Below are positions 13,400 through 64,000 of a DNA stretch of 64,000 nt, one piece after another. Location: contig JAHDFB010000005.1 in assembly GCA_020628475.1 (NCBI GenBank), forward strand, positions 1 to 64,000. Reading direction: 5' to 3'. The notes beneath the pieces were generated by a model. That model ran no database searches. It was given only the letters and a program-made list of their open reading frames with translations, and was not told the origin of the DNA. The DNA is from Saprospiraceae bacterium (lineage in GTDB: Bacteria > Bacteroidota > Bacteroidia > Chitinophagales > Saprospiraceae). How positions within the stretch are numbered: the first letter of the stretch is position 1; every line of letters starts with the position of its first letter. Position numbers and translations under genes: made by a program.

Positions 13400-14833
13400 T
13401 TATAATGCTTCTCCGGTTAATGTTCTCAGTTGATATAAACTGGTCCAGTAATTTCTCAATGCGGAGACGTAATCTCGATGAATTTGGTCTTTTTCTCGTT
13501 GCGCTAATGTCAGTTCGGTAATGCTTATTTTACCTAGGGTATAGCGTTGATTGCTGATGTCAAATCGATCCGTGGCTAAGGATTTTATTTCTTCCAAAAT
13601 CAATATATCCTGTTGTGCTTGAATGAAGCGCATGGCCGCGTTTCGAATCTCATTTTCTAGGTTTAAAAGATTTTGTTGGTTCGTCGTTTCAATTAATTCT
13701 TGATTTAATCGGGCGATTTTCATCGCTTCTCTGCGTTTTCCTCCATCATAAATGGGGACAGAAATATTGAACCGGATTTGTTGTTCATTAAATGGATTTT
13801 GATAGATATCTTCGATATTTTCAGACCCTCGTGCCCATCCAAATAATGCCAACACATTGGATTGAATTCCATAATCCGAACGTGTTGAAGCGAGCTGTCT
13901 TTTTTGTTCAAGTAATTCACGTTGATATTGTATGATTTCAGGCCTATTTTCCTTGGCTTTCAGAATCAATTGATCCATGTCAATGATGCGTTGTGCCGGC
14001 GCTTCAGGTAAGACAAAATCTTTGCTAGAAAGTTGCTGGGTGTTTAAGAACGTTTCCAACGCTTGAATGGCCTGTGCTTCTTGATTACCTGCCTGAGCTT
14101 CCGTTAAAATGGCTCTTTTTAATTCCATTTCCAATTGTAGAACTTCATTTTCAGAGGTTTTTCCCAATTCAAAGCGCTGTTGAGCGATAAGCAGTAAATT
14201 TTCATTAACCTCTTTATTGGTTTGAGCGATATCCTTTAAGGTTTTGGCTCCAATAATGTCAAAGAATAATTGGGATGTTTGCCATTTGGCATCTTCAACG
14301 GCTATATTATAGGCATATGTCTGTTCTTTTAGTCTCAGTGGAAGAATACGTTTCTGCCATTTTAATGGATTAAAAGCAAACAGCGGTTGGACTATTCCTA
14401 TTCTAAACGGTACCCCATTGTACTGTTTGATATCAGTACTGAAATTGTCAAAACGTTGTAGATCGCTTTGAACAAAGACGTTCGCACCAGTAAGTCCAAT
14501 ATTTTGATTGGCATAAAGGGATAAGGACGAATTATTTTGACTGACACGTTGAAAGGCGATTGATCCATCGGGTTGTGTAACCTGAGTTGACGTGTTGATA
14601 AAATTGGGTAATAAGGCATCCAGTCCGATTGTCGGTCTCAGATTTGCTTTGTATAGCTGATACTCGGCGCTGCTGATCGCCAGATTGGTTTTGGCACGCT
14701 TGACAGAAATGGTCTGTTTTTCTGCCTGTTCCAATAGATTTTCAAGATGAATAGTCCTCTCTTGAGCTGCTGATTGATGAAAGGATATGCCTATCAAGAG
14801 TAGGCAAAGTATATATTTATAAGTATTATTCAT
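13400..14833 (-). CDS. TolC-family outer membrane channel
   Basis: This 477-residue protein has a signal peptide (~1-23, ending QSAAQ) and the duplicated TolC pattern of long amphipathic helices with two strand-forming stretches. The sequences RFELGKTSENEVLQLEMEL and RYTLGKISITELTLAQREKD are the two equivalent helix-start motifs of the outer membrane efflux (OEP) repeats. It should form the trimeric channel and periplasmic tunnel of the exporter. Its start overlaps the end of the adaptor gene by eight bases, so the two are translated together. Confidence 0.93.
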   Translation of the reverse strand: MNNTYKYILCLLLIGISFHQSAAQERTIHLENLLEQAEKQTISVKRAKTNLAISSAEYQLYKANLRPTIGLDALLPNFINTSTQVTQPDGSIAFQRVSQNNSSLSLYANQNIGLTGANVFVQSDLQRFDNFSTDIKQYNGVPFRIGIVQPLFAFNPLKWQKRILPLRLKEQTYAYNIAVEDAKWQTSQLFFDIIGAKTLKDIAQTNKEVNENLLLIAQQRFELGKTSENEVLQLEMELKRAILTEAQAGNQEAQAIQALETFLNTQQLSSKDFVLPEAPAQRIIDMDQLILKAKENRPEIIQYQRELLEQKRQLASTRSDYGIQSNVLALFGWARGSENIEDIYQNPFNEQQIRFNISVPIYDGGKRREAMKIARLNQELIETTNQQNLLNLENEIRNAAMRFIQAQQDILILEEIKSLATDRFDISNQRYTLGKISITELTLAQREKDQIHRDYVSALRNYWTSLYQLRTLTGEAL

Positions 14834-53085: not shown

Positions 53086-53601
53086 CTATTCTTTGAGGCG
53101 ACTGGGCTCTATAAAGTTAATGGACATCTTTAGAGGAGTTGTATCTTGGTTATTTGTGTAAAGAAGAAGCTGATTGTCTGGAGTATTTGGATCCCCTTCC
53201 ACGATGCCAAAGGTGTAGAATTGATCGATATTTTTTTTCTTCTTCAGATCGTGCATGAAAATGGTATCATTGCGCATCGTATAACGACCGCGAAGTTGTT
53301 TCATAGGTTCATCAATCTGCACATAGGCAAATTTTCCGTTTTTCATATAGACGATGCTTTGAACATGCATTATATCCTGTGTATTTACGGCAACAAGTGC
53401 TTGTCCTAAGTGAAGGTTAGTGATGTACTTCTGAATACCGGGTTTAGCAGCAGAATAAATAATGCCAAAAACAATAATTCCAAGAAAAATTAAAACATAA
53501 TTTCTTGATTTATTTTTGTAGTTTTCTTTCAATGCGCGGTTCAATTGAAAGATAAATACAACTATGATCATACAGATCAGCACTAGGATCAACGATGCCA
53601 T
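53086..53601 (-). CDS. Single-pass membrane protein, tandem paralogue 1
   Basis: This 171-residue protein has two hydrophobic helices (~3-22 and 36-55), then a ~115-residue soluble C-terminal domain of beta-rich character (IVYMKNGKFAYVQIDEPMKQLRGRYTMRNDTIFMHD). It is paralogous to the gene at 53660-54196. Residues in the central C-terminal domain are identical and the two genes share a 229-nt perfectly identical tract, although the N-terminal halves differ at about half of positions. I recognise no known family. It lies 58 bases downstream of its sister. Confidence 0.75.
   Translation of the reverse strand: MASLILVLICMIIVVFIFQLNRALKENYKNKSRNYVLIFLGIIVFGIIYSAAKPGIQKYITNLHLGQALVAVNTQDIMHVQSIVYMKNGKFAYVQIDEPMKQLRGRYTMRNDTIFMHDLKKKKNIDQFYTFGIVEGDPNTPDNQLLLYTNNQDTTPLKMSINFIEPSRLKE
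53139..53367 (-). repeat. 229-nt identical tract shared by the tandem paralogues, copy 1
   Basis: By direct comparison every base from TTGTATCTTGG to TTTGAACATG matches 53713-53941 (offset 574). The flanks fall quickly to partial identity, apart from a second ~40-base match a few bases further on. Gene conversion is the simplest explanation. Confidence 0.85.
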
Positions 53602-53659
53602 ATTGTATGTTTTTTTAGATTATTGATATACATTAATTTTATTAATAATTAAGATGGTT

Positions 53660-54196
53660 CTATTCTTTAAGGCGGCTCGGTTCTATGAAATTAATGGACA
53701 TCTTTAAAGGAATTGTATCTTGGTTATTTGTGTAAAGAAGAAGCTGATTGTCTGGAGTATTTGGATCCCCTTCCACGATGCCAAAGGTGTAGAATTGATC
53801 GATATTTTTTTTCTTCTTCAGATCGTGCATGAAAATGGTATCATTGCGCATCGTATAACGACCGCGAAGTTGTTTCATAGGTTCATCAATCTGCACATAG
53901 GCAAATTTTCCGTTTTTCATATAGACGATGCTTTGAACATGACTTAAATCCTGTGTATTTACGGCAACAAGTGCTTGTCCTAAGTGATGTTTGGCCCGAT
54001 ACATTTGGATGCCTGAATTCGCAGCTAAATACATAAACCCAAGAATAACAATTCCTAGAAAAGTCAAAACGTAATTTCTTGTTTTGTTTTTGAAATCCTC
54101 ATTCAGTGCTCTGGATAACTGATAGATAAATATGACCATCACAGTTATAAAAAGTAGAAGAATCAATAAGGCAATGATTCCAACTGTGAATGCCAT
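53660..54196 (-). CDS. Single-pass membrane protein, tandem paralogue 2
   Basis: I use the ATG at 54196 (178 aa), where it aligns with its sister (MAFTVG versus MASLIL); a further ATG at 54232 is in frame. It has two hydrophobic helices, a short basic loop (RALNEDFKNKTRNY) between them, and the same soluble C-terminal domain as paralogue 1, ending FIEPSRLKE. Only the last-but-few residues (TIPLK versus TTPLK) differ in the C-terminal half. No function can be assigned. The pair probably arose by tandem duplication. Confidence 0.75.
   Translation of the reverse strand: MAFTVGIIALLILLLFITVMVIFIYQLSRALNEDFKNKTRNYVLTFLGIVILGFMYLAANSGIQMYRAKHHLGQALVAVNTQDLSHVQSIVYMKNGKFAYVQIDEPMKQLRGRYTMRNDTIFMHDLKKKKNIDQFYTFGIVEGDPNTPDNQLLLYTNNQDTIPLKMSINFIEPSRLKE
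53713..53941 (-). repeat. 229-nt identical tract shared by the tandem paralogues, copy 2
   Basis: Second copy of the tract at 53139-53367. It is wholly inside the coding region, covering most of the soluble domain. Confidence 0.85.
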
Positions 54197-54383
54197 AATG
54201 GAAGCAGGATTCGAATGTACCGTATAAATCATGGGCGTATTTTTTGTTCGTTTGAGTCTAAATATACAGAAAATCGCATGTAGTGTTTTCTATGCTCGAA
54301 ATTTTCAACCAATATAATAGATCATGGTGTAGGGTATGATGTAAGGGTAGAAGCTGAGTTAAATCAATAAGCTCGGATATTAT

Positions 54384-57718: not shown

Positions 57719-58747
57719 TTAGTCAAAAAGACCTTCGTAGGAGTTGTCGCCGTCTCCCGATCTTTCGATAGGGTCCATATCTGGAATTTCATCAAGGTCT
57801 AAAACGTCATCGTGTTGTTCTGCTCCACCCATTAAAAGTAGACTACTTCTTTTTTCGTATTCTTCGAGCATTTTAAGTCCTTGCTCTTCGAAGACACCGC
57901 TTTGAAGATCGATGGAGTCCATAAATGAAGAAGACATTTCCATGAATTGTTCCATTTCACCTACCTTATTTGCTACATCGTCCGCAATGTGTTCCATGGC
58001 CTGATCAAACATAGCCCGCTTATCTTTATCACCACTGATGATGCTCATCGCTGATTTCATCGCAGAGTGTGATGTCTTAATGGCTTTGTATTCCACCTCT
58101 TTTACCGCCACCTGATCTTTGGTATCTTCCAATAAGATTTCGGAATTGGAGTACATTTTTGTCAATACCTTGTGCAGGATTGTCATTCGTTTGTGTAGTA
58201 CCGCATATTTTTTGTTACTCTCTTTTAGGCGAGCTGCTTTTCTTGTATTTAAGGTAAGGGCAGAAGCATTTCCTTGTTCTTTCGCTTTTTTAGCAATCAG
58301 TAGATTCTGCTTGATATCGGCGTTGTTATTTTTGATCAAATCATTGATTTTTCGCATTTGACCGCGAAGAGATCCGATTTGTTTGCTCATTTTCTGAAGA
58401 TTATCTTCTAGATCACCGATATAATTTTTAAGTATCCCAATAGGGTCGATGGTAACAAAAATGGATGTTATTTTTCGCATCACACTTTTGTACATATATC
58501 CGACTACTGCTCTTACTTTAGGATCTAAAGCCATATAGATCAGTAGACCAAGAACAAGCACACTGATAATTAAACCAATCGTGGAAGTTACGAAAGTGAT
58601 TAAAGTAGGAATTCCAATAGCAAAAATACCATAAGCTAGTGCTGCTAAAATTCCGATTAGAAAAATGGCTCCAGTTTTTCCCTCTGGCCTTTGCCAAAAT
58701 GATTTTTGTTTAAATGTGTCGTTATTTAAGGGGTTTGATACCGCCAT
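57719..58747 (-). CDS. Membrane-anchored coiled-coil protein (function unknown)
   Basis: At 342 residues it has two adjacent membrane helices (~26-50 and 53-72). About 170 residues of continuous coiled coil follow (~100-270: IGDLEDNLQKMSKQIGSLRGQMRKINDLIKNNNADI...). It has an acidic C-terminal tail (DDVLDLDEIPDMDPIERSGDGDNSYEGLFD). The topology, a membrane hairpin with a cytoplasmic helical rod, recalls PspA/Vipp1-like or flotillin-like scaffolds, but no family motif confirms this. It lies 13 bases downstream of a second coiled-coil gene, so they form an operon, and both face the exporter-like operon starting at 59738. Confidence 0.75.
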   Translation of the reverse strand: MAVSNPLNNDTFKQKSFWQRPEGKTGAIFLIGILAALAYGIFAIGIPTLITFVTSTIGLIISVLVLGLLIYMALDPKVRAVVGYMYKSVMRKITSIFVTIDPIGILKNYIGDLEDNLQKMSKQIGSLRGQMRKINDLIKNNNADIKQNLLIAKKAKEQGNASALTLNTRKAARLKESNKKYAVLHKRMTILHKVLTKMYSNSEILLEDTKDQVAVKEVEYKAIKTSHSAMKSAMSIISGDKDKRAMFDQAMEHIADDVANKVGEMEQFMEMSSSFMDSIDLQSGVFEEQGLKMLEEYEKRSSLLLMGGAEQHDDVLDLDEIPDMDPIERSGDGDNSYEGLFD

Positions 58748-58760
58748 AATGTATTAAATT

Positions 58761-59315
58761 TTATAAGTATTGTTCAAATAGTTCAACATCCGCTTTGATT
58801 TTTCCTTCGAAATGGTCGTAGGAATCCACAAAGTTTTTGGTCACGTTTTCTAATTTGACGCGTTCTTTTTCCATGTTCGCATCAAATTCAAGCAGTTTTG
58901 TTTCGTATAATTTAATTTCTGCCTTTAGTTTTTCAATTTTTTGTTTGTGATTGCTGATTTTTTGTTTGATGGCTTCCATCTTATCAGCTCGATTAGTAAC
59001 CTTATCAGCTCGTTGTCTTTTGAGGGCATCGGCAAAACTTTCTCGCTGAGCAGAAAGAACATTTAAATAATGTCTGGCGCCTTTGCGAAAAGCATCTTTG
59101 GTAAATCCCATGGTCTTTGCAGTCGTGAAAGCTGATTTGAAAGCTGTTTCCTCATCGATATCCATAGACAACAAGGTACTCACGGAATGCATAAATTTAA
59201 GGTAATCAAAGCCTTCTAAGTGGTTTTCTTTTATTGCTTTAACCAGTGCATCTGTCGACCGCTTATCCAGATCACTATTTACACCCATTAATTTTTTTAT
59301 GTCAATTGCTGCCAT
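58761..59315 (-). CDS. Cytoplasmic coiled-coil protein partner (function unknown)
   Basis: At 184 residues the N-terminal half (~1-95) is a compact helical domain (LVKAIKENHLEGFDYLKFMHSVSTLLSMDIDEETAFKSAF..). The C-terminal half (~98-180) is a charged coiled coil (KMEAIKQKISNHKQKIEKLKAEIKLYETKLLEFDANMEKERVKLENV). There is no signal or membrane helix. It probably assembles with the membrane coiled-coil protein encoded directly downstream. It diverges from the TolC-like operon across 422 bases. Confidence 0.75.
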   Translation of the reverse strand: MAAIDIKKLMGVNSDLDKRSTDALVKAIKENHLEGFDYLKFMHSVSTLLSMDIDEETAFKSAFTTAKTMGFTKDAFRKGARHYLNVLSAQRESFADALKRQRADKVTNRADKMEAIKQKISNHKQKIEKLKAEIKLYETKLLEFDANMEKERVKLENVTKNFVDSYDHFEGKIKADVELFEQYL

Positions 59316-59737
59316 TGGTCACTAAATTAGAATATATCTATGTAAAACAGGCAAATTACGATAAAAGCATTCAAAAAAAACTGATTTTTTTCCATGTGAG
59401 GGCTAGAATATCGACTAATGGCCATATTGGGGCTACCGATGACAATCTGTACATTATTAAACATATTGTGAAATAATTTAATATGTGGCACGGTGTTTGC
59501 AACTAAGATAATTACTTGTGATATTCATATTCTTTTAAAACGTCTTTGATCGCATTCTTAATATATTAATTGTAAGTGTATTATATATTGTAGATAATTT
59601 TAATATATTTGCATACTTCATGTTTGTCCCAAAACAGATAACTATTAAATAAATCATTTACCTAGTTAAACAGATTTATATGCATTTTAAACTCCCAAAG
59701 TTTAATATGCAACTACTTAAACAACTAAACCGATTTT
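59316..59737. other. AT-rich divergent intergenic region
   Basis: This gap must hold the promoters of the coiled-coil pair (leftward) and the TolC-like operon (rightward). TATATTTG at 59604-59611 fits the Bacteroidota -7 box for the rightward operon, but no good -33 box stands at the right distance. Several TATATTA-type near-palindromes lie between 59555 and 59610. No gene is visible. Confidence 0.5.
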
Positions 59738-61333
59738 ATGCGCAGCTTTATTCTGGCATGTATTTTCGTTATTCCTAGCATGATGTGGGGACAATCGCTT
59801 GATCGACTTGAGCAATTACTTCATCATTCATTTAGTACCGTATCACAGGTAGATGTGCAGCGAGCTCAGGCACGTTTGGACTATAATGAAAAACAGAATG
59901 GTGTTCGCTTCCAATCAGCCATGACCAATAATGATTTTGCTGGTTTAGAACTTGGAAATGTTTGGAGAATTTCTGGTGGTGTTTCTATGGACTTCTTACA
60001 AAACGGTATCCGTCAGAAACGACAAGAAAGAACCGTTTTAGAAATAGAGAAGGAGTTAGCTGAACTTACTATTGAAAAATCCACCCTCGATAAGAACTAC
60101 GGTTATCTATTCAATTATTTTATCTATTCGTTTAATAAGGAGAAAAAAATGTTGCTTCATCAAAAGCAACTGGTCCTAAATAGTTTGATCAATAAGAATT
60201 ATGATTTGTACTATAACCACGAATTGAGTTATGAGGAAATTCTATATCTACAAGGATTAGCAAGAGAAACAGAAATTATTTTACAATCTATCGAACATAC
60301 AGACGAGATGTTCGAGCAGATGATTGATTTGAAGGAGGTACCGAGTTTGGCCATCCGAAATCTTCCTATTTTTGAATTGCAAATTGATAGTTTTTTACAG
60401 TATAAGCCATTTGACTACCTAGAAAAAGAGGCGGAACTCATGAAGAAGCGTTCCGATTACGTTCAAAAGTTAACGGATCGCCAGAAATTAACCTTATATG
60501 CCAATATTCACTATCGTCCTGATTTTGGTAATCAGGAGAGAACGGGTTTTTACAATAATTTCGGTCTTCGGTATTCTACGCCATTAAACTTTGATAAAGA
60601 AGAGGAAAAAAAGCTGGTAGAGTTGGAACAAGAGCGCATCGATGCTTTCAATGATGATCTTATTTTCAATGAATACAAAGAGCTGATCAATCTAGTCTTG
60701 GATTATGATACGAAATTGAGACAATATTCCAATTTTCATTACAAGTTGAAAAAATTAAAAGAATCGCAACGAGTGCAAGGTGCGATCATGCAAGTATCTA
60801 CGCAAAAAGTTCAGAGCCGTAAGGATTGGAAGATTGAATTGGAGATTTTGAATGTGGAATATGAGCTTCTTGGCTTGAAACAGCTCTTGTATCTTGCTTT
60901 TTTACGGATATATAATAAGGCGCGACTCACGGAGGTAAATCCCTATGTCAATATTATTCCATTTGAGTTGGATCAAAAGCGATTTAAAGGGGAACGCGTA
61001 TTAAAAATCGCTGACACTCAGAAAGAGCAATTGATGAGTGATTTTGTTATTGACTATTTACAAAAGAATAATTTCAAATATGCGCTTTGGTTAGGGACGC
61101 AGGTGCCTTCGGATCTAAAGCAAAAGTTGTACGAACATGGAATCTTGCTTGTGGCGGATCAATCCATGTATAATGAAAAAGCGATCATACCTGTTCCTGT
61201 GCGCCAGTTTTCGAGTAGGGGAGACATGGAACTTTGGATCGATCAGATGTTATTGGAACATGCTAGCAGTTATTTATTTTTTGAAGCTATTGATGAGCTT
61301 ATCTTGTTGGACAGTAAAACCTTAGGCGATTAA
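59738..61333 (+). CDS. TolC-like outer membrane protein with extra C-terminal domain
   Basis: At 531 residues it has a signal peptide (~1-19, MMWGQ) and long helical hairpins of the TolC type (~20-420) with amphipathic strands (LTLYANIHYRPDFGNQERTGFYNNFGLRYSTPLNFD). Family matches are weak, but the order helix-strand-helix is right. After ~420 there is a ~110-residue extra domain (RVLKIADTQKEQLMSDFVIDYLQKNNF...ILLVADQSMYNEKAIIPVPVRQFSSRGD) of alpha/beta look, not seen in normal TolC. It is the first gene of an operon coupled (TAATG) to the HlyD-like gene. Confidence 0.7.
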   Translation: MRSFILACIFVIPSMMWGQSLDRLEQLLHHSFSTVSQVDVQRAQARLDYNEKQNGVRFQSAMTNNDFAGLELGNVWRISGGVSMDFLQNGIRQKRQERTVLEIEKELAELTIEKSTLDKNYGYLFNYFIYSFNKEKKMLLHQKQLVLNSLINKNYDLYYNHELSYEEILYLQGLARETEIILQSIEHTDEMFEQMIDLKEVPSLAIRNLPIFELQIDSFLQYKPFDYLEKEAELMKKRSDYVQKLTDRQKLTLYANIHYRPDFGNQERTGFYNNFGLRYSTPLNFDKEEEKKLVELEQERIDAFNDDLIFNEYKELINLVLDYDTKLRQYSNFHYKLKKLKESQRVQGAIMQVSTQKVQSRKDWKIELEILNVEYELLGLKQLLYLAFLRIYNKARLTEVNPYVNIIPFELDQKRFKGERVLKIADTQKEQLMSDFVIDYLQKNNFKYALWLGTQVPSDLKQKLYEHGILLVADQSMYNEKAIIPVPVRQFSSRGDMELWIDQMLLEHASSYLFFEAIDELILLDSKTLGD

Positions 61334-62388
61334 TGAGGAATTTTAGCTTAAGAGAACGTCCTTCGGTTATTACCGTTCTTCGGGAGCCACCGAAGAAGAA
61401 AAAATCCTTTCCTTGGCAGAAGTGGACCTTCATTGCCGCAGTCATATTTTTGATTAGTTACATTGGTTATAAGGCGGTTACAAATTTATGGATCATCAAT
61501 GCCAATGGACAAATAGAAGTAAAAAAACAAACGGTTCATTTTGCGGACGATGTGACCCTCAATCAATTTTTTGTGGCAGAAGGTCAGCAAGTAACTGCGG
61601 GAGATACCTTGTTTACCTATTTGCCGATCATCGAAGACGTCGTGAGTACAAGTGTGACCGATTATGACAAAACCAATGATTGGGTGGAGAAAGAAAAATT
61701 AAATATCCAATCGAAAATAGCACACAAAACCTTCGAGATTGAGTCTTTGATCGGGCGAATCAATAATTCTCAATCTTTGGCCACCATGAAAAAAGAAATG
61801 GTGCTTCTTGGTTCAGTCAATGATAAAAATGAGTATGAATATCTCATGTTGGACATCAAAAAGATGGGCCTAGAATTGGAAGGACTTAAAAAAGAAAAGA
61901 AATACCTTCAAGGATTGCTGTATTCCTTAGATCAGAAGAAGGCTGTTCCTCAACAAAAAGTGACTACGAGCACCCGAAAACACGGAGATACCAAAACGGC
62001 TTTTGTTGCTCCTATGGACGGTATTATAGGGCAAATCAATTTTAATCCCAACGAGGTTTGTTTCCGACGCGAAGAAATCTTGACCATTCACAAATTAGAA
62101 GACATGATGATCAAGGTGTATTTCGATCCTTATGAGATGAAATACCTTGAACAAGGGGATGATGTCGATGTCATTTTTCCAGATGGATCGAGTTCAGAAG
62201 GATTTATTGAAAATTTCCATGTTGCGACCTACGCTTTACCAGAAGAATTTCAGAAGAAATATGAGCCAACTACCAGAAATATTGTGGCCAATGTTCATTT
62301 GAAAAATTCGAATGACCGCTATAAACTGATGAACTTCTATAAAATGAATGTTCGAATTTCAAAATCTCGATTTAATATACCGATATGA
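61333..62388 (+). CDS. Single-pass HlyD/Alg44-like membrane fusion protein
   Basis: At 351 residues it has a short basic cytoplasmic N-terminus, one membrane helix (~30-50) and a lipoyl-type half (LNQFFVAEGQQVTAGDTLFTYLP). A coiled-coil hairpin (~115-215) follows, then the second lipoyl half (FVAPMDGIIGQINFNPNEVCFRREEILTIHKLEDMMIKVYFDP) and a beta-barrel. This is the layout of HlyD adaptors and of the periplasmic part of alginate Alg44. It should connect an inner-membrane enzyme with the TolC-like protein encoded one base upstream. Its 3' end overlaps the next gene by four bases. Confidence 0.85.
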   Translation: MRNFSLRERPSVITVLREPPKKKKSFPWQKWTFIAAVIFLISYIGYKAVTNLWIINANGQIEVKKQTVHFADDVTLNQFFVAEGQQVTAGDTLFTYLPIIEDVVSTSVTDYDKTNDWVEKEKLNIQSKIAHKTFEIESLIGRINNSQSLATMKKEMVLLGSVNDKNEYEYLMLDIKKMGLELEGLKKEKKYLQGLLYSLDQKKAVPQQKVTTSTRKHGDTKTAFVAPMDGIIGQINFNPNEVCFRREEILTIHKLEDMMIKVYFDPYEMKYLEQGDDVDVIFPDGSSSEGFIENFHVATYALPEEFQKKYEPTTRNIVANVHLKNSNDRYKLMNFYKMNVRISKSRFNIPI

Positions 62389-63764
62389 TTCTTAAAAATC
62401 TAGAAGCCAATGTCAATACGCTGATTCGTGAAAATGATATCGATTTTCACATCGTTAATTCGCAAACCGAATTACAATTAGAGGACTTGGTGGCTTGTGA
62501 TGCCCTCATTTTTCGATCGGATCGCGCGAGTCAAATCCAGGTAGAAATTGAAAAAATTAGACGTGCTGATAATCCGAGATTATATTTGAAACCGATCTTC
62601 GTTTCATCAAGAAGGATGAAAATACGGCTAAATAATGAAGTCGACGGAATTGTAGAAGGTTCAGATTTGGATAGTATTGAGGAACAGACCAAGAACTTAC
62701 TGTCAAAAATAAAGGAAATCAATCCGAAGCCATTATCAAAATCCATGGCTTTTAATGACCGCGTGTTATTAAAAACGATGCAGTTCATGTACACAAGAAG
62801 TCTTGATTTAAAGCCGAAGCGGAGTCGAGCTGCTTTGATGGGTTATCATTATCCTTTTGTACGAACGCTCATTCCGAATTTTGAAGTGACTACCTTTCTG
62901 GATAAACTGGATGTCGCCAGCAAAAAAAACTGGTTCCATACCAAGTTGGAAGATCGAGTCAATTTATGTAATTCATGTGGTAGTTCTTATTTACATTTTG
63001 TGGAATCATGTCATAAATGTCATTCCATCGATATCAATGCGGAACCGCTGATTCATCATTTTAGATGTGCCTACATCGGACCACAAAGTGATTTTGAACA
63101 AGAAGATTTATTGATTTGTCCAAAATGTGATAAAGTACTTCGACATATCGGAGTGGACTATGATAAACCTTCTGAAATTTTAACTTGTAATTCTTGTAAC
63201 CATCAAGCTCAGCAATCCAGTATTCGAGCGGGTTGTATCGATTGCGGCGATCAAAATGAACTGACCAAATTACATTCAAAAGAGGTTCACTCTTATGTTT
63301 TGACAGTAGAAGGTATTGAAATAGCCAGAACAGGCCAATCTTTTGATATTGTTGAAGAAAATGACGTGCTGAAAATGCATAAATACGAATTGGAAGCGCA
63401 GGTTTTTGACCTGTTGCGTTATCAGGAAATAAAAAAGACCGTTACCAATAAGCAGAAGTCCTATACGCTTTCGGTTGATTTTAATGAATCCGTTTTGGAT
63501 GATTTAACCAATACAGAACGAATTACTTTTACCAATGAATTCAAGGATATTTTAGGCAATTATTTGGATGAAGTGGACTTGATGACGACGCGTTCAATCT
63601 CTAGTTATGAGATTTTACTGAGCTGTAAACGAAAGGATTACGCAGAAGATATGATGGAGACCATTCGGTACAATGTGAATAAAATCATCAATGATAATTT
63701 TAATGATCCAAAACATGATTTGAGCGTTCAGCTTCAAGTTTTGGATAAAAATTTTGTGGCTTAA
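62385..63764 (+). CDS. Multi-zinc-ribbon protein (TackOD1-like, possible degenerate GGDEF-like end)
   Basis: This 459-residue protein has no signal peptide. Residues ~1-110 look like a receiver-like Rossmann domain without a clear phosphorylation Asp (VACDALIFRSDRASQIQ). Residues ~120-290 carry eleven Cys, mostly in CxxC pairs: C195/C198, C209/C212, C228, C245/C248, C268/C271 and C284/C287. That gives three zinc ribbons and resembles the TackOD1 output domain (recalled, not verified). Residues ~335-459 have a beta-alpha-beta pattern (YTLSVDFNESVLDDLTNTERITF...DEVDLMTTRSISSYEILLSCKR) like a nucleotide-cyclase/GGDEF fold lacking GGDEF. It may regulate the membrane protein encoded next. Confidence 0.55.
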   Translation: MILKNLEANVNTLIRENDIDFHIVNSQTELQLEDLVACDALIFRSDRASQIQVEIEKIRRADNPRLYLKPIFVSSRRMKIRLNNEVDGIVEGSDLDSIEEQTKNLLSKIKEINPKPLSKSMAFNDRVLLKTMQFMYTRSLDLKPKRSRAALMGYHYPFVRTLIPNFEVTTFLDKLDVASKKNWFHTKLEDRVNLCNSCGSSYLHFVESCHKCHSIDINAEPLIHHFRCAYIGPQSDFEQEDLLICPKCDKVLRHIGVDYDKPSEILTCNSCNHQAQQSSIRAGCIDCGDQNELTKLHSKEVHSYVLTVEGIEIARTGQSFDIVEENDVLKMHKYELEAQVFDLLRYQEIKKTVTNKQKSYTLSVDFNESVLDDLTNTERITFTNEFKDILGNYLDEVDLMTTRSISSYEILLSCKRKDYAEDMMETIRYNVNKIINDNFNDPKHDLSVQLQVLDKNFVA

Positions 63765-64000
63765 TTGTTAGATAATTCCATATTCGAAAACCTGATTCCA
63801 GAATTTATCAATTTCTGGATAGAAGGAGGCACGGGCAAGTTTGTTCGGGTCTTCTGGTATTTTATTATTTTCGAATTAACGCGTTATATAATACTAGATT
63901 ATTCGGTCTATATCTATCGGATTTTTACGCGCAATGAACGTAGAAAAAAATGGGCAGCAGCTAAAAAAGCCTTCCATTTGGAAAATCCATTTATATCTAT
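63765..64000 (+). CDS. Start of a membrane protein, possibly a GT2-type glycosyltransferase (truncated by window end)
   Basis: A TTG directly after the previous stop opens a frame through the window edge (at least 78 residues). The visible part has a short N-terminus and one or two membrane helices (VFWYFIIFELTRYIILDYSVYIY). A basic stretch (RIFTRNERRKKWAAAKKAFHLENPFIS) follows. Such N-termini are seen in membrane glycosyltransferases of the GT2 polysaccharide-synthase group, where 'P(x)ISV..P..NE' follows, but no catalytic motif lies inside the window. The operon context (HlyD/Alg44-like and TolC-like genes) supports the idea only indirectly. Confidence 0.4.
   Translation, partial: MLDNSIFENLIPEFINFWIEGGTGKFVRVFWYFIIFELTRYIILDYSVYIYRIFTRNERRKKWAAAKKAFHLENPFIS

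Follow-up and report, generated by a model that had tools for sequence, protein, structure and literature searches.

Cyanobacterial cellulose secretion has been modelled as a tripartite route of glycosyltransferase family 2 (GT2) synthase, HlyD-like adaptor and TolC-like outlet (the XcsA-XcsB-TolC model of Maeda 2018, as given in the accessible text of the review PMC12430437), and the same review describes the model as lacking experimental validation. In alginate secretion, the GT2 polymerase Alg8 has a HlyD-domain partner, Alg44, and cyclic di-GMP (c-di-GMP) is the usual switch of both alginate and cellulose synthases (PMC4594306, accessible text). The BcsE protein of E. coli indicates that a degenerate receiver-GGDEF pair can join a synthase complex (PMC7439463, accessible text). 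The domain TackOD1 (PF18551) was named in 2018 in a paper whose accessible text deals with archaeal regulators, notes the domain in 'some bacteria' and calls its function obscure (PMC5847659). The current study concerns an operon in which these elements meet, with the gene order TolC-HlyD-TackOD1-GT2, all rightward, at the end of a 64,000-base stretch of DNA from a Saprospiraceae bacterium. This stretch, referred to here as the window, comprises the first 64,000 bases of the 96,884-base contig JAHDFB010000005.1, which belongs to a 61%-complete draft genome of 3.4 Mb. We propose that the operon encodes a synthase-dependent exopolysaccharide secretion system with a TolC outlet, which is regulated by a TackOD1 protein instead of c-di-GMP. 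We assign this reading a probability of about 0.7, and infer the product, the route and the regulation from protein families, motifs, predicted folds and gene order.

The likeness to the cyanobacterial model lies in the GT2 synthase, the HlyD-like adaptor and the TolC-like outlet; however, the genes of T. vulcanus are scattered and its synthase carries PilZ, whereas here the genes form one operon with TackOD1 and no PilZ (PMC12430437, in part). With alginate secretion the operon shares the pairing of a GT2 polymerase with a HlyD-domain partner, but Alg44 consists of PilZ and HlyD_3 and the present adaptor has no PilZ, and a TolC fold stands in place of AlgE and AlgK (PMC4594306, in part). BcsE and the TackOD1 protein are alike as cytoplasmic proteins with a degenerate receiver-GGDEF tandem, BcsE being a regulator of a synthase-exporter; BcsE binds c-di-GMP and has a different N-terminal domain, whereas here the TackOD1 zinc domain lies between receiver and GGDEF fold (PMC7439463, in part). 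The domain itself is the one described in 2018, when some relatives with a receiver-TackOD1 arrangement were reported, but the accessible text makes no mention of a GT2-HlyD-TolC neighbourhood (PMC5847659).

The four genes are tightly coupled. The gene for the TolC-fold outer-membrane protein (531 residues, with a C-terminal extension; 59738-61333) overlaps by one base with the gene for the HlyD-family periplasmic adaptor (351 residues; 61333-62388), which in turn overlaps by four bases with the TackOD1 regulator gene (459 residues; 62385-63764), and the GT2 polysaccharide-synthase-like gene follows at zero gap from a TTG start (63765-64000 within the window). Open reading frame (ORF) starts were taken as the first ATG, GTG or TTG, and called ORFs may thus be too long. 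The initial annotation, made from the DNA letters alone, had noted this coupling (TAATG, ATGA and zero-gap TTG) and the absence of a visible pump; the coordinates and overlaps agree with it, and no ATP-binding cassette (ABC), resistance-nodulation-division (RND) or major facilitator superfamily (MFS) gene occurs among the four operon genes. It had further proposed that the sequence be extended past position 64000, where the cut gene, suspected to be a membrane-bound glycosyltransferase, proved to be a complete GT2 gene of 441 residues (contig 63765-65090; L009:6766-8091), and that the gene order be sought outside the source genome. That order recurs in dozens of loci, and for this reason the arrangement is not a matter of chance.

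An even sample of 296 genomes of the phylum was searched for TackOD1, which scored over its cut-off in 10 of them, the source genome included, and in 13 at E<=0.001. The ten loci over the cut-off besides that of the window, two of which lie in one genome, all contain TolC, HlyD, TackOD1 and GT2. A scan of named genomes yielded 320 relatives; the 80 best of these were retained, so that the counts lean to closer relatives. Four duplicates (L050, L067, L071, L091) were dropped from the 91 mapped loci to leave 87, the two contigs concerned in the case of L071 differing by 100 bases in length; L051 has no called TackOD1, as the longest-ORF rule kept an opposite-strand ORF, which leaves 86 loci, and L155-L157, whose contigs are as long as those of L094, L084 and L096, were taken as repeats of these and not counted again. 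The named relatives belong to Saprospiraceae, Flavobacteriaceae, Tenacibaculum, Balneolaceae, Prolixibacteraceae and others, and include one Desulfuromonadales bin (L119). GT2 lies directly 3' of TackOD1 in all 85 loci that have a downstream gene, with gaps mostly of -8 to +12. HlyD occurs at most four genes upstream of TackOD1 in 79 of the 86 loci, and HlyD and TolC both in 68; the 11 loci with HlyD and no TolC are all on cut contigs. Among the seven loci with no upstream HlyD, L065 and L116 are on cut contigs, L096, L102 and L115 have the HlyD-TolC pair elsewhere, and L093 and L101 have neither. Protein distances are correlated between TackOD1 and GT2 (rho 0.58), TackOD1 and HlyD (0.67) and HlyD and GT2 (0.79), values that none of 300 permutations reached; TolC distances correlate at rho 0.36 with those of TackOD1 and 0.34 with those of HlyD.

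In the phylum of L119, TackOD1 scored over its cut-off in 7 of 247 genomes. L119 itself has the full operon; in L150 and L152 GT2 adjoins TackOD1, and in L153 an epimerase gene lies between the two. Profile searches found neither HlyD nor TolC in L149-L154, and L119 is the only one of the seven with both. As this phylum shows one full operon among seven genomes with TackOD1, the four-gene module appears, as far as sampled, to be mainly a Bacteroidota matter. The TackOD1 genes of L149, L151 and L154 have no GT2 within the stretch fetched, and the domain may have another role there. An apparent fusion of TackOD1 and GT2 in L152 (an ORF of 882 residues) was rejected, because its first half reads as a wrong-frame stretch of high GC; we take the two genes to be neighbours that are not fused. 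A scan of viral_contigs with a single TackOD1 protein gave no match.

The GT2 protein matches PF00535 with 99.7 bits (E 2e-28; cut-off 23.3). Its best NCBIfam model is that of the poly-N-acetylglucosamine synthase PgaC/IcaA (TIGR03937; E 3e-51), which covers nearly the whole length (residues 54-404), but the score of 174.5 bits falls short of the equivalog cut-off of 422.3. The solved relatives of the protein include chondroitin, hyaluronan and heparosan synthases. The partner genes of Pga systems probably differ from those of this operon. All 75 GT2 relatives of 425-450 residues contain QxxRW and DxD, and the QxxRW motif is present in the GT2 of the window. A DGD motif occurs in 71 of the 75, at what we take to be the position of the ED motif of other synthases. 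Family and DxD/QxxRW motifs suggest that the protein is of the processive polysaccharide-synthase type, its processivity being putative.

The 351-residue protein has both features of a HlyD-type adaptor, namely a match to PF13437 (HlyD_3; 33 bits, cut-off 22.2) and a single N-terminal membrane span at about residues 32-50, as judged by hydropathy. This bears out the single-pass HlyD-like linker of the initial annotation, whose comparison with Alg44 holds for the HlyD part and fails for PilZ, the domain that in Alg44 is joined to HlyD: no PilZ match was found in the protein at E<=1, nor anywhere in the 61%-complete genome. The 531-residue protein upstream matches none of the Pfam models at E<=1, PF02321 included, and is not among the eight PF02321 (OEP) matches of its own genome; an ordinary OEP/TolC-type gene that PF02321 does recognise lies elsewhere in the window (13412-14746, leftward). 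An AlphaFold2 model built from 36 sequences (predicted local distance difference test score, pLDDT, of 86) shows the beta hairpins and long coiled helices of the TolC fold. Residues 20-402 match channels of the TolC, OprM and CusC type with Z up to 20.1 (root-mean-square deviation 5.0, 369 residues aligned), and Foldseek with the model recovered TolC/OprM-type channels at E 3.7e-12. A profile of the TolC-like family found nothing among PDB sequences at E<=1, and only the fold search recognised it. The protein is thus predicted to have a TolC fold, in agreement with the outer-membrane tunnel that had been suspected from sequence.

The C-terminal alpha/beta extension of this protein spans about 135 residues (60926-61333). 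The fold search gave only weak rows for it, at Z 5.5, and no clear match. In 26 of the 64 loci that have all four genes, the TolC protein is longer and bears a tail of about 250 residues (in one case 350). The tail of the window aligns with the C-terminal end of an alignment of these long forms over 54 columns (hhalign probability 73.6, E 2.9e-5), and is probably a shortened relative of the domain on the long homologues, which resembles glycoside hydrolase family 18 (GH18). An LD[VI]E-type motif occurs in 24 of the 26 long tails, and five of 25 long-form tails scanned match PF00704 (GH18) at E<=0.01, the best at 7.2e-8. The long-tail profile found chitinases in PDB at E 0.002-0.8, ranked below pentatricopeptide repeat proteins; the latter were not used, as their single stretches are insignificant. 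In loci such as L119 (6974-7756) and L083 (7040-7813), the tunnel is fused to a possible glycoside hydrolase.

The 459-residue protein matches PF18551 with 170.7 bits (cut-off 32; E 3.3e-50), and its AlphaFold2 model has a pLDDT of 90. Sequence and model point to an architecture of pseudo-receiver, TackOD1 zinc domain and degenerate GGDEF fold. The initial annotation had described a zinc-ribbon protein with a receiver-like front and a cyclase-like end, and these parts can now be named. The receiver-like N-terminal domain (approximately 62406-62729) was placed by structure alignment and column tally; the structures of PleD and WspR align to residues 17 or 18 to 459, spanning both the receiver and the GGDEF parts, and this alignment from residue 17 or 18 on indicates a receiver-like fold in front. 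The TackOD1 domain (62757-63299, by PF18551) contains 11 Cys and 3 His that are invariant in all 74 aligned TackOD1 proteins. The GGDEF-fold domain (63366-63764) was recognised by structure alignment, in which model residues of about 328-459 matched GGDEF structures with Z of 11.8-13.6 among the 50 VIA-align entries listed, and a profile search with the TackOD1 protein also reached GGDEF structures, at E 9e-5. The GG[DE]EF signature is absent from the domain in the window, from all 74 rows of the TackOD1 alignment and from all 11 rows of the phylum-wide set; an RxxD motif occurs in 17 of the 74 rows, and the protein of the window has DxxD. The phosphosite column holds Asp in 36 of the 74 rows and Arg in the protein of the window, which also lacks the pocket residues of a phosphorylatable receiver (acidic pocket, phospho-Asp and Lys). 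A complete receiver is present in five of the 11 rows of the phylum-wide set. These five loci with an intact receiver (L025, L029, L030, L031, L033) carry a separate gene of about 110 residues between HlyD and TackOD1. Its product matches the TackOD1-protein profile over the first 88 or so positions, the part that corresponds to the pseudo-receiver of the window. This match suggests that the front domain of the window may be a distinct pseudo-receiver, which in these five relatives stands beside the intact one, and not a decayed version of that receiver.

Among the c-di-GMP parts, GGDEF and PilZ were searched for in 13 genomes in all, two of them incomplete. Neither PilZ nor a GGDEF match over the cut-off was found in the 12 other genomes with TackOD1, of which 11 are at least 90% complete, and the one GGDEF match below it, a weak one, shares its position in part with a TackOD1 gene; the 61%-complete source genome likewise gave neither a PilZ nor a GGDEF protein. 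As the accessible text of PMC10333796 makes no mention of Bacteroidetes or Bacteroidota, these genome searches of our own are the basis on which c-di-GMP parts are taken to be absent. Given this absence and the precedent of BcsE, our inference is that the TackOD1 protein stands in for a c-di-GMP module, and gene order is what points to its contact with the GT2.

Several genes that accompany the operon bear on the likely polymer. The counts come from phmmer (E 1e-10) and take in the whole of each locus, and the names from Pfam or NCBIfam were assigned to representatives only. A TviB-like dehydrogenase occurs in 32 of the 87 loci, in two of them (L077, L112) on the strand opposite to TackOD1. 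TviB is a UDP-N-acetylglucosamine C6 dehydrogenase; two representatives of the locus enzymes score 453 bits, below the equivalog cut-off of 592 and above that for nucleotide-sugar dehydrogenases, and the enzymes are read as TviB-like UDP-N-acetylhexosamine dehydrogenases. GlmS is encoded in seven of the 87 loci. Because of the dehydrogenase, GlmS and the GH18-like TolC tail in relatives, an amino-sugar product is favoured, with an N-acetylhexosamine or its uronic acid as the most likely building unit of the polymer. The dehydrogenase accompanies a long TolC tail in two of 26 loci, both on the opposite strand, versus 28 of 38 loci with a short tail or none; as the two hardly coincide, the distribution suggests two operon subtypes, one with the long tail and one with the dehydrogenase. 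A protein of the 654-residue type with DUF4114 is present in 17 of the 87 loci (opposite to TackOD1 in L074 and L090). H-NOX, a nitric-oxide sensor, is present in 14, once on the opposite strand (L057). The H-NOX loci include L058, L061-L064, L068, L087, L096, L102 and L115, and two-component genes lie beside the operon; in L058, one that was scanned, these are receiver, histidine kinase and receiver-LytTR genes. L026 carries an Hpt gene and a receiver-LytTR gene. From the H-NOX loci, nitric-oxide control of exopolysaccharide appears possible in Bacteroidota.

We propose the following sequence of events. The GT2, as its family and motifs suggest, would use a nucleotide-activated donor to polymerise a sugar in the cytoplasm, and would thread the chain through the inner membrane. 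Folds and gene order suggest that the HlyD adaptor would then bridge the periplasm to the TolC-fold tunnel, from which the chain could exit in one step, and that export may proceed with no ABC, RND or MFS pump. The cytoplasmic protein of pseudo-receiver, TackOD1 and GGDEF fold would, judging by its place in the operon, dock on the synthase and switch it, and so may fill the role that falls to PilZ and c-di-GMP proteins in cellulose and alginate secretion. Phosphorylation is the probable switch in relatives with an intact receiver; in other relatives a nitric-oxide relay through H-NOX may feed the locus. As the protein of the window has no phosphosite, its signal probably comes from a partner protein or a ligand. 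With confidence slightly below even, we extend this proposal to a whole Bacteroidota class, in which a protein of receiver, TackOD1 and GGDEF fold would replace c-di-GMP control, a TolC tunnel, often fused to a GH18-like domain, would replace the beta-barrel porin, and an H-NOX phosphorelay would sense nitric oxide in several lineages.

Some results weigh against a TackOD1-controlled exopolysaccharide system. The GT2 scores far under every NCBIfam equivalog cut-off listed, the distances of TolC and GT2 are uncorrelated (rho 0.055, reached by 52 of 300 permutations), the TviB-like dehydrogenase was not found in the 61%-complete source genome, and L093 and L101 carry TackOD1 and GT2 in loci that contain no HlyD or TolC. 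The loci are also not independent, since among 64 of them there are 17 pairs whose GT2 proteins share about 90% identity or more. Pumps are the usual partners of HlyD and TolC proteins, and this, together with the low equivalog scores of the GT2, would suit another reading, in which a small molecule, lipid or glycolipid leaves through a tripartite exporter: the GT2 would modify a lipid or small acceptor, HlyD-TolC would export the product and an energising partner would be encoded elsewhere. We consider this improbable: no pump occurs among the four genes and no transporter among the Pfam-scanned representatives of neighbour clusters, QxxRW is universal among the 75 GT2 relatives and the PgaC model spans nearly the whole protein, and 26 of the 64 loci have a GH18-like tail on their TolC.

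A more serious contender, although still an unlikely one, accepts that a polymer is made and exported, but takes TackOD1 as a co-transcribed transcriptional or other signalling output and not as a direct switch of the synthase. The accessible text of PMC5847659 describes TackOD1 as an output domain of response regulators, some with a winged helix, and reports it in type IV pilus loci of Thaumarchaeota, a further point against our proposal; in L149, L151 and L154, three of the seven cases in the phylum of L119, the stretch fetched around TackOD1 has no GT2, so that the domain is not tied to export everywhere. On the other hand, GT2 comes straight after TackOD1 in all 85 loci, mostly coupled or at near-zero gaps, the distances of the two proteins correlate, and no DNA-binding domain was found in the protein of the window at E<=1 in Pfam. 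The presence of BcsE, a degenerate receiver-GGDEF protein, in a synthase complex (PMC7439463, accessible text) also argues for a direct role. We therefore retain the secretion system switched by TackOD1 as the best explanation.

On the other side of the operon, a leftward pair of coiled-coil genes faces it, one of 342 residues with two membrane spans (57719-58747) and one of 184 residues (58761-59315). The initial annotation had suggested that this pair may belong to the system, and in its strongest form this would make all six genes one envelope scaffold and export system. The divergent adjacency recurs in L046, and in Portibacter marinus (L032/L050) the two sets lie a few kilobases apart. 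However, the 342-residue gene is present in 38 of 41 genomes of the family, mostly twice, versus TackOD1 over its cut-off in four of the same 41 (seven at E<=0.001); it occurs in only four of the 91 mapped TackOD1 loci, two of them on the same contig, and the 184-residue partner adjoins it in all 12 loci examined, the coiled-coil genes always forming a pair of their own. A six-gene system is thus very improbable, and we judge the pair to be a separate, family-wide feature that is independent of the operon. The 342-residue membrane protein has no family name; the Pfam matches that the coiled-coil genes gave (PspA, FlaC, CCDC22 and others) are weak, fall short of the cut-offs and were read as noise from the coiled coils. 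Downstream, a pseudouridine-synthase gene in convergent orientation and a gene for YidC follow the GT2 gene. Elsewhere in the window, two neighbouring leftward ORFs of 171 and 190 residues (53086-54232) have near-identical sequences for much of their length and look like the outcome of a recent tandem duplication.

The combination of the four genes and its breadth were not found among the titles and opening abstract lines listed by searches of one open library, in which TackOD1 appears in a single paper (PMC5847659). The system had initially been called undescribed, which within that library holds for the module as a whole but not for its parts, as TackOD1 has been named (PMC5847659) and a TolC-HlyD-synthase route proposed (PMC12430437). 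We rate the parts as known and the combination as new, as a variant of synthase-dependent polysaccharide secretion. The operon offers a testable function for TackOD1 and for TolC-like proteins that Pfam models do not recognise. It would be an operon-encoded case of the TolC-HlyD-synthase route, of which the cyanobacterial version is a model with partly scattered genes, and it suggests a way in which a polymerising synthase could be controlled in bacteria where c-di-GMP parts are not detectable.

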